DNA of 33,992 nucleotides, from contig CAJWYM010000040.1 in NCBI GenBank assembly GCA_913049555.1, forward strand, positions 1-33,992, in the 5' to 3' direction. The notes under the pieces are model-generated. The model saw only the letters and a program-made list of their open reading frames with translations. It did no database searches and was not told where the DNA came from. Source of the DNA: an uncultured Opitutia bacterium (lineage in GTDB: Bacteria; Verrucomicrobiota; Verrucomicrobiia; Opitutales; CAJWYM01). The position numbers were made by a program, and so were the translations under genes. Below, in pieces: positions 10,423 through 12,364 of this stretch. Numbering within the stretch: position 1 is the first letter of the stretch; each line of letters begins with the position of its first letter.

Positions 10423-10497
10423 GCTCCCATAGTGTAATGGATAACACGTCGGTTTCCGGAGCCGAAGATTTGAGTTCGATTCTCAGTGGGAGTACCA
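10423..10497 (+). tRNA. tRNA-Arg (CCG)
   Basis: The acceptor stem GCTCCCA pairs with TGGGAGT (first pair G-T). The anticodon stem TCGGT/GCCGA holds loop TTCCGGA, anticodon CCG, reading CGG arginine codons. The T-arm is TTGAG/CTCAG around TTCGATT, and CCA is encoded. Its 3' half (from 10449) is copied at 12164-12214, so this gene appears to be the attachment site of an integrated element. Confidence 0.93.
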
Positions 10498-10499
10498 TT
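10449..10499 (+). repeat. Direct repeat, left copy (tRNA-Arg 3' half, attL-like)
   Basis: This 51-base stretch runs from the anticodon stem through CCATT and matches 12164-12214 at 48 positions. Differences are at 10467, 10485 and 10486. The position at the 3' half of a tRNA is the usual target of tyrosine-integrase elements. Confidence 0.8.
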
Positions 10500-10986
10500 T
10501 TAAAACAGAACTCAAGCACCTACGCAAGAAAAGCTTCAAGATATTCAAGTGCTAGATCAAATTTTCGTCTTCATCGCCATTCTTTGCTAAAGAATGCAAT
10601 ACTTTAATATCATTAGCGATTAGACAAATTGCCGTCAGCAGAAATATAAATATCAATTTCATCATCAAAATTCTATGAACATAATATAACGCTTTCAAAT
10701 ACATAGTTCAGATATCACATGGGAGGCATATAACCAATAGATATTAGGGTTTATTTATTATCAAAGTATTTGATGATCTGTTAAGTTTTTATTTCAAGCG
10801 ACCTTTAAGCCCGCTGCTCTGCGTAATACCTCAATTCTTCTGAAAACTTAATTATTGTGTTCCAATTATCAATCATTAGGGGTACCAATTGTTAGTGTTA
10901 CTAAACTAAAAAAGCTTTTTTGAGTGTTGTTTCAGTTCGTTTGTTTGCCATTTGTTTTTTAGTAGGAGAGAGTATAAGATATTTTT
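10498..10986. other. Island left arm, mostly non-coding
   Basis: Between the tRNA-Arg and fic. I see no integrase fragment in any frame. The only coding hint is the short minus-strand frame at 10552-10665. AGGAGAGAG at 10964-10972 precedes the fic ATG by 14 bases, a long spacing for a Shine-Dalgarno. Confidence 0.4.
10552..10665 (-). CDS. Possible 37-residue hydrophobic small protein
   Basis: The frame begins MMKLIFIFLLTAICLIAND, a strongly hydrophobic N-terminal helix that looks like a signal or membrane segment. It continues as a short acidic tail ending DENLI. There is no clear Shine-Dalgarno and no family known to me. It lies on the strand opposite fic, inside the island. A single-helix frame of this length can arise by chance in AT-rich DNA, so this is only a candidate. 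Confidence 0.25.
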   Translation of the reverse strand: MMKLIFIFLLTAICLIANDIKVLHSLAKNGDEDENLI

Positions 10987-12018
10987 ATGTTTAAACCTAA
11001 ATTCACCATTACAAACTGTATGACGTCTGCAATTACCCAGATTGAGCGTGCTCGTGGATTTTTGGAAGCAGCTCAATTGTCAGATGATTGGGTGAAGGAT
11101 ATGAGTGATGAGGCTTTGATCAAGGAGGCTCACCATACGACTCACATTGAAGGGACTCGCTTGAGTTTGGAGGATGCTGAACGACTGTGGAATGGGGAGG
11201 AGGTCGATGGAGCGGACCCTGAGGATACTCGGGAATTATTAAACTATCGGGATGCTTTTGATTTCGTCTCGGATTGTCTGGATTATGGAGATCCTATAAC
11301 TGAGGTAATGATTCGAGAGATTCATCGAAAGCTAGTTAATGGGGTTCGAGGAGATAAAGCGTTGCCAGGGTCTTACCGAAATGTTCAGAACTATGTTGCG
11401 AATGCTTCGACAGGGAAAGTAATTTATACACCACCATCACCTGCTGAAGTATTTAATATGATGGCTTCATTAGTTGGGTGGCTGAATAACGAAGAGGATG
11501 TCCATCCTGTTTTGATTAGTGGAATTACACAATTTCAATTAGTTCACATTCACCCTTTTGTGGATGGAAATGGTCGAACTTCTCGTTTGCTTTCGACCTT
11601 GTGTCTTTATCGATCTGGTTATGATTTTAAGCGGTTATTCACGATTAGTGAGTATTATGATCGTGATCGTCCTGCATTTTATAAAGCTATTCAGAATGTC
11701 CGTGATCAAAATATGGACCTGACTGGCTGGCTTGATTATTTTGTCACTGGATTAGAAACTCAAATGATTGAAGTTAAGGAACGAGGGGAGAAAGTCATTC
11801 GAAGAGATGTTCTCGTAAATAAGCACAATCTGAACGAACGTCAGAAAGTGGCTATTGATTTTATGCAGAGTCATGAGAAACTACAGATTCAAGACTTTGA
11901 AAATCTATACCCAAAGACCAATCGTAGAACCTTGCAACGTGACCTTAAGAAGATGGTGGATGTTGGTATTTTAATGACTCAGGGCTCAACTCACCAACTT
12001 GAGTATTTGCTATGTTAA
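10987..12018 (+). CDS. Fic/DOC family protein with C-terminal winged helix
   Basis: A 343-residue Fic protein that would transfer AMP (or another phosphate-containing group) from a nucleotide to a hydroxyl of a target protein. The full active-site motif [12 protein letters not shown] begins at His189, so it should be active. The N-terminal inhibitory motif [S/T]xxxE[G/N] is present as TTHIEG (Thr51, Glu55, Gly56), placing it in the class with the inhibitory helix at the N-terminus. The flap is around SYRNVQNYV (129-137). The C-terminal 60 residues ([12 protein letters not shown] to the end) look like a winged-helix domain, common in this subgroup. It is the only substantial gene between the two tRNA-Arg repeats, with no partner antitoxin gene. 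Target unknown. Confidence 0.88.
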
Positions 12019-12020
12019 GT

Positions 12021-12112
12021 TTGCGACATCTTCACGACATTTTTTGCGACAGGTTCACGTCACAACTTGCGACATTATTACGACAAAAGTTGTGACAACT
12101 TTTATTTCGTAA
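12021..12112 (+). repeat. 23-base tandem repeat after fic, phased half-sites
   Basis: Three full 23-base units (12021-12043, 12044-12066, 12067-12089) each begin TTGCGACA and carry a second ACGACA or ACGTCA. A fourth partial unit begins TTGTGACA at 12090. The CGACA-like cores start at 12024, 12035, 12047, 12058, 12070, 12081 and 12093, alternating steps of 11 and 12 bases, close to one helical turn. It begins two bases after the fic stop codon. Confidence 0.75.
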
Positions 12113-12163
12113 CACCTATTTTGACACCTAAGTCCTGTAGGTATCCAAAATGCTGTAATATAT

Positions 12164-12214
12164 TCGGTTTCCGGAGCCGAAAATTTGAGTTCGATTCTCG
12201 ATGGGAGTACCATT
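12164..12214 (+). repeat. Direct repeat, right copy (displaced tRNA-Arg 3' half, attR-like)
   Basis: Copy of 10449-10499 with three substitutions. The T-stem is changed on its 3' side (CTCGA instead of CTCAG) yet still pairs with TTGAG by T-A and G-T pairs. No tRNA 5' half precedes it, so it is not a functional tRNA. Confidence 0.8.
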
Positions 12215-12364
12215 CTATAGGATGGGATAGGATGGGAGTGGTGTTTAAAATGATATCACCACAAAAAATCTTTTGATTTTTAGTTATGAAGGTTGGATTC
12301 TGTTTTTCTATGGATTATTTTTAGAAAAGATGAATTATGGGTGCTGACTCATGGGTTACTAATT
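12215..12364. other. Short gap after island with decamer tandem and hairpin
   Basis: ATAGGATGGG is repeated twice in tandem near 12216-12235. GTGGTG (12238-12243) can pair with CACCAC (12257-12262). The downstream aldehyde dehydrogenase frame is open back to 12293, but the family start is 12365. Confidence 0.4.

Follow-up and report, generated by a model that had tools for sequence, protein, structure and literature searches.

Phased direct repeats behind the stop codon of fic genes as probable cognate binding elements of the Fic winged helix

The FIC-domain protein CccR of Yersinia pseudotuberculosis represses its own gene through its own C-terminal DNA-binding domain and protects a 46-nt promoter site that comprises two 10-bp inverted repeats 26 bp apart (PMC9755527). 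When LacI is bound at O3, on the 3' side of lacI, the repressor blocks RNA polymerase, the message is truncated and the product is SsrA-tagged (PMC3711431). The winged helices of BldC, RdfS and Xis sit head to tail on direct repeats and form filaments with about one DNA turn between molecules (PMC5859096, PMC11963761), and CbFic2, a class II Fic protein that also ends in a winged helix, has been assayed with random DNA only (PMC10628234). The subject of the present analysis is a stretch of 33,992 nt from an uncultured Opitutia bacterium (contig CAJWYM010000040.1, positions 1 to 33,992 of the forward strand; hereafter, the window), in which a fic gene is followed, two bases 3' of its stop codon, by a phased array of short direct repeats. 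Judging from comparisons of sequences across genomes, this array is very probably the cognate, multi-site binding element of the adjoining Fic protein.

The window locus resembles each of these systems in part. As in the case of CccR, a Fic protein with its own DNA-binding domain would act on its own gene, but the window array consists of several direct repeats at 11/12 bp behind the stop codon, whereas CccR recognizes inverted repeats in the promoter. The likeness to LacI at O3 lies in a site just 3' of the gene for the DNA-binding protein itself; LacI, however, is an unrelated protein with a single palindromic operator, and the roadblock has been demonstrated there, whereas it is a prediction for the Fic array. 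With BldC, RdfS and Xis, the array shares direct repeats at steps of 10-13 bp, with sums of 23, and a winged helix in the structural model. It would work like the sites of these proteins without being a member of the group, given the different fold context: BldC, RdfS and Xis are small proteins without an enzyme domain, the BldC repeats are 9 bp long, and indirect readout is prominent among them, in contrast to the sharp residue-base rule of the Fic array. SoFic (Sofic) and CbFic2 are, like the window protein, class II Fics with a C-terminal winged helix, but canonical SoFic relatives have no array, and the window Fic scores far under the cut-off of the NCBIfam SoFic equivalog NF046030 (81.7 bits vs 550 bits). 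No earlier account of phased arrays after fic, of a wing code or of cassette exchange was found in the literature searched, which covered few subscription papers, and a literature search on the array motif gave matches in unrelated papers. What appears to be new is a putative autoregulatory operator that is unusual in both its place and its arrangement and is coupled to the protein that reads it.

The array occupies positions 12021-12097 of the forward strand and contains seven CGACA-like cores, of which the fourth (CGTCA) and the seventh (TGACA) are degenerate. The cores start at 12024, 12035, 12047, 12058, 12070, 12081 and 12093, that is, at steps of 11, 12, 11, 12, 11 and 12 bp, which pair into 23-bp double sites. 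A preliminary description of the window had claimed a phased 23-base repeat with seven such cores, and this repeat is real: the steps have now been measured, and the self-identity of the array (0.61 at shift 23 and 0.59 at shift 46) exceeds the maximum of 0.56 reached by the best of shifts 8-39 in 5000 dinucleotide-preserving shuffles. The measured cores also agree with the start that had been given, two bases after the fic stop. A repeat search found three 31-nt copies spaced 23 apart, and the array was unreported by Tandem Repeats Finder (the copies are only ~75% alike). The extent had been put at 3.5 copies, up to 12112, which is too long; because the last recognizable core ends at 12097, positions 12098-12112 fall outside the array, leaving ~3.3 copies. 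The idea of helical phasing holds up as far as a phased, apparently protein-bound array is concerned, but the further notion that the sites lie on one face of the DNA is only approximate, because 11.5 bp per site rotates successive sites by ~34 degrees.

A protein-first survey, blind to the array, compared Fic protein queries with whole genomes and viral contigs and yielded homologues of ~50-76% identity. In each of the 26 close homologues whose 3' end is intact, a phased array immediately follows the stop codon (L159-162, L233, L234 and L238-257, where L numbers denote loci). This count was made by eye on printed flanks and includes L250, which has only two cores; L258, L260, L261, L262 and L263, with broken or divergent 3' ends, were left out. 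Plasmid and phage collections held mostly distant Fics. Pfam PF13784, used as bait, yields canonical SoFics and served as a negative control only: none of the 30 canonical SoFic-type Fics picked in this way carries the array, and several of them have palindrome-like sequence upstream instead. It should be noted that four canonical SoFic-type genes (L178, L180, L182 and L184) apparently have repeated or palindromic sequence directly 3' of the stop codon, so that 3' sites may extend beyond phased arrays.

An array-first scan of 257 Gb of bacterial and archaeal genomes for the exact pattern GCGACANNNTNNCGACANNNNTTGCGACA (20 fixed bases) recovered 114 loci, compared with ~0.5 matches expected by chance according to our own calculation with uniform base frequencies. 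By record name, these loci belong to Deltaproteobacteria, Planctomycetes, Verrucomicrobia, Bacteroidetes, Caldilineaceae, Spirochaetes, Gammaproteobacteria, one archaeal bin and others. In 69 of the 114 loci, the match follows the end of a same-strand Fic-like frame at a distance of 2-65 bp, and Fic relics or a contig edge precede the array in about a dozen more; otherwise, the flanking genes are diverse. The first core lies 1-10 bp past the stop codon in 61 of 75 loci. Consecutive steps, whether 11/12 or 10/13, add up to 23 in 159 of 186 pairs, and the unit is therefore a 23-bp double site. When 50 genomes were searched with the strict pattern for a regulon elsewhere in the genome, nearly all matches fell within one array per genome. 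Thus, the search for the repeat beside fic homologues that the preliminary description had proposed located it next to fic in many phyla; translation of the repeat in frame and a lack of conservation, either of which would have spoken against a binding array, were both looked for, and neither was seen.

These comparisons also bear on the idea that the array is a slipped coding repeat, a remnant of a former C-terminal extension of fic. This idea was rejected: a period of 23 is not divisible by 3, the stop codon precedes the array in the homologues, and the array is translated in none of them. The same facts count against the coding relic as part of a broader explanation, in which the array would otherwise act as RNA, namely, as an RNA antitoxin or as a Fic-bound repeat in the 3' untranslated region. 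The array would indeed be co-transcribed with fic, and type III antitoxins are short RNA repeats. However, steps of 11/12 or 10/13 that total 23 suit helical DNA, arrays lie over promoters in related clades, and the array of the window lies downstream of fic, whereas type III systems have the repeat array upstream of the toxin gene. An RNA function or a coding relic is accordingly hardly credible.

The fic gene itself (10987-12018, forward strand) encodes a class II Fic protein of 343 amino acids, with matches to Pfam Fic (1.6e-20) and Fic_N (3e-06) and to the PADLOC SoFic profile (3.4e-63). The core motif of the family, HPFx(D/E)GN(G/K)R, is present in the translation as HPFVDGNGR, with positions H189-R197 invariant in 50 homologues, and the N-terminal inhibitory motif (S/T)xxxE(G/N) occurs as TTHIEG at residues 51-56, with E55 and G56 equally invariant. 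The folds nearest to the AlphaFold model of the protein (mean predicted local distance difference test score, pLDDT, 88) are 4rgl, SoFic 3zec and 3eqx, and CbFic2 8cil. In this model, residues 284-343 (11836-12015, forward strand) form a winged helix, the putative reader of the array, with helices at 284-295, 301-307 and 313-325 and strands at 329-332 and 339-342. Residue 336, a histidine encoded by CAC at 11992-11994 of the forward strand, is placed at the tip of the wing between the two strands.

It is this residue that emerged from a covariation scan in which every column of the last 110 Fic residues was compared with every array offset in 64 dereplicated loci. Residue 336 paired with array base -4 more strongly than any other combination in the whole scan (z of 20.4, and of 24.2 when repeated; 1.49 of the 1.73 bits); the runner-up column for this base was residue 338, with a z of about 12, and the association of 336 with -4 was unequalled in 100,000 permutations. 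His336 goes with T in 13 of 13 loci, Asn336 with C in 29 of 29 and Arg336 with A in eight of nine, so that 50 of the 51 loci with one of these three residues obey the rule. The sample was unselected for base -4, because the search pattern left this position free. The sharpness of the peak at one residue, with weak signals from more variable neighbours, argues for a direct contact of residue 336. Larger changes of the wing accompany larger changes of the array: tails of the TDPT(R/K)xY type go with TGACA cores, often at steps of 10/13 that still sum to 23, and the cores are GGACA in L254-L256 and CGCCA in L162. Going by these comparisons, the array is conserved directly 3' of the stop codon in the Fic clade, is non-coding and has bases that track the wing. 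Conservation beside fic and residue-base covariation together lend strong support to the suggestion of a protein-bound array, with the Fic winged helix as a possible binder.

The winged helix and the array also appear to move together. When tail/array types are placed on a tree of the Fic body, from which the winged helix was excluded, they are scattered (27 changes compared with a shuffled mean of 28.0), and independent pairs on firmly supported branches agree in six cases and disagree in none. In pairs such as L238/L241, DNA identity drops from ~80% to ~50% at 240 bp before the stop codon and stays at this lower level through the winged helix and the array. Both edges of the exchange are visible in L159/L239, where the bodies are 93% alike, the tails 44% alike and the arrays different, and the downstream DNA matches again over 136 bp (score 177; null maximum 22). 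As read from these alignments, the winged helix and the array are exchanged as one block between otherwise similar Fic genes. Because the operator lies beside the specificity-determining 3' end of fic, both can be swapped in one recombination event; with its operator retained at the 3' end, the gene would thus allow specificity and target to travel as a single cassette.

The position of the array is not the same in all Fic clades. In Fics of ~26-35% identity, the start codon is immediately preceded by phased direct repeats built on different cores (CTTGACTCAT-like in L164-L167, L169-L171 and L202-L204; GGCTA in L205; GGGTGTAAT or GGGTATAAT in L216 and L229). These arrays of TTGAC, GGCTA or GGGT cores, which abut the start codon in distant clades (L164-L171, L202-L205, L216 and L229), probably represent the same principle with other codes. 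Three array loci (L067, L071 and L047) have the array upstream of fic and none downstream; it covers the -35 element of a TTGCGA-17-TATGAT promoter in L067 and L071, and in L047 it is inverted and adjoins TATAAT. With these three exceptions, a site at the gene's own promoter, as in CccR, was not found in the clade, and a second operator upstream of fic was likewise not detected, the 21.3 kb of DNA 5' of fic in 75 window-clade loci being free of cores, against ~1.3 expected by chance. Given its occurrence at the 3' end, the start codon or the promoter, the array goes with the protein and is not tied to one promoter position.

Alternatively, the array could be an operator or insulator of the downstream gene, for example, of hsdR in type I restriction operons, and not of fic. 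An HsdR-type gene follows the array in L030 and L062, and hsdS-type genes precede fic in L030 and L113, but the downstream neighbour is on the opposite strand in 22 of 52 loci, the neighbours are diverse, and no conserved -10 element follows the arrays. This possibility is therefore considered improbable, and, with neighbour strands mixed, control of the following gene was rejected as a general rule. A promoter inside the downstream arrays was rejected as well, there being no -10 enrichment on either strand.

As to the mode of action, cooperative binding of Fic molecules to the direct repeats is envisaged, with two sites in every 23 bp; base -4 would be read by residue 336 at the wing tip, and the GACA core by the recognition helix. 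Less surely, the bound Fic might form a roadblock at which RNA polymerase stalls before the stop codon is transcribed; the product of the resulting stop-less fic message could then be tagged by trans-translation, and Fic would thereby cap its own level, like LacI at O3. Given the footprint of RNA polymerase, an enzyme molecule that stalls at a Fic filament would halt short of the stop codon. The placement of the sites favours the roadblock, the first one being a few bases past the stop codon and none being found 5' of the gene; as at O3, the site is at the 3' end of the gene and, by covariation, seems cognate to its product. Autoregulation by a LacI-O3-like 3' roadblock is only tentatively proposed as the main role, whereas the best explanation overall, a cognate element with roadblock autoregulation, is modestly favoured.

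Several points weigh against this explanation. The binding of Fic to the array is deduced from sequence, and the roadblock and trans-translation are predictions. The expected T at -4 is found in only the first four of the seven window cores, and orphan arrays occur without a visible fic. Part of the covariation is due to shared descent, with winged helix and array being linked and swapped together; this linked exchange is the main caveat to the covariation. Furthermore, fic looks operon-borne in about one-third of the loci with a codirectional upstream gene, so that autoregulation would also hit other genes.

The main rival is allosteric control by DNA. The array would still be the cognate DNA of Fic, but the bound protein would be fixed in a particular oligomeric and catalytic state, with the DNA as a cofactor or antitoxin in cis, and loss or destruction of the locus would alter AMPylation. 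CbFic2 is dimerized by DNA and stimulated up to 22-fold (PMC10628234), the toxicity of Sofic requires contact between the C-terminal and AMPylase domains (PMC12249575), and such a role would tolerate an array either upstream or downstream of the gene. On the other hand, the placement of arrays on promoters or start codons in related clades suggests a role in expression control, and five to seven sites accommodate only a few molecules. We therefore regard allostery as unlikely to be the main function. A more specific 'DNA antitoxin' in cis is a rather remote idea. Fic would then be held as a filament on the DNA of its own gene, which would keep it harmless or switch it between AMPylation and de-AMPylation, and loss or destruction of that DNA, for instance through a phage, would set it free; exchange of tail-plus-array cassettes would then let several units coexist in one genome without cross-talk. 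With the array as cognate element, a DNA target is predicted for a widespread Fic group whose winged helix had none known. The rule that links wing position 336 to a single base (His-T, Asn-C, Arg-A) can now be tested by gel shift, and the purpose of the winged helix in SoFic-like defence proteins becomes directly testable.

The genomic context of the window array includes a tRNA-Arg gene at 10423-10497 and a 54-bp direct repeat found by repeat search, the left copy of which (10449-10502, forward strand) lies in the 3' part of this gene; the right copy (12164-12217, forward strand), a partial tRNA-Arg, is 93% identical to that part. The attachment-like repeat that had been reported 3' of the array is thus present, but it starts 66 bp past the array end and not ~50 bp. 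The 1.7-kb stretch from 10423 to 12217, with fic and the array as the sole cargo seen, resembles a minimal island that is borne on a tRNA gene and lacks an integrase of its own. Neither of two other uses that had been suggested for the array finds support here. The 1.7-kb insert contains no Rep gene, as plasmid iterons would require beside them (the neighbours are fic, tRNA-Arg and an aldehyde dehydrogenase gene), and no recombinase gene that accessory sites might serve; moreover, few homologous arrays adjoin a tRNA. More broadly, the array could be a recombination or mobility signal, such as arm-type sites or an element end, that travels with fic. The two copies of the tRNA-Arg 3' part around the window unit and the occurrence of fic-array units among diverse neighbours are in line with this, but a tRNA is nearby in few homologous loci, no recombinase is linked, and a foreign recombinase would leave unexplained why the base code tracks the Fic wing. 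Such a signal is very improbable, and association with tRNA or attachment sites was rejected as a general rule, few tRNAs being near homologous arrays.

Some arrays occur in other settings. In L030, L062 and L113, fic and the array are located within type I restriction loci. A CGACA-type array lies behind a RhuM-family gene (Pfam 1e-106) in L056, L060 and L068 (e.g., L060:5180-5265), where it is preceded by a second, GTGACTTGGGG-like 12-bp repeat; of the three arrays on the L060 contig, one follows rhuM and the other two follow fic. The contig of L032, from the candidate phylum Nomurabacteria, has two arrays (L032:365 and L032:5218), one inverted behind a fic end and the other behind the end of an apparent sigma-factor gene. 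Finally, in L017, L086, L103, L105, L114 and L115, a similar stretch of ~70 bp with a TTTGATAACCCGTTGATATTGAAGG-like end lies downstream of the array, even without a visible fic, and is perhaps part of a mobile unit.
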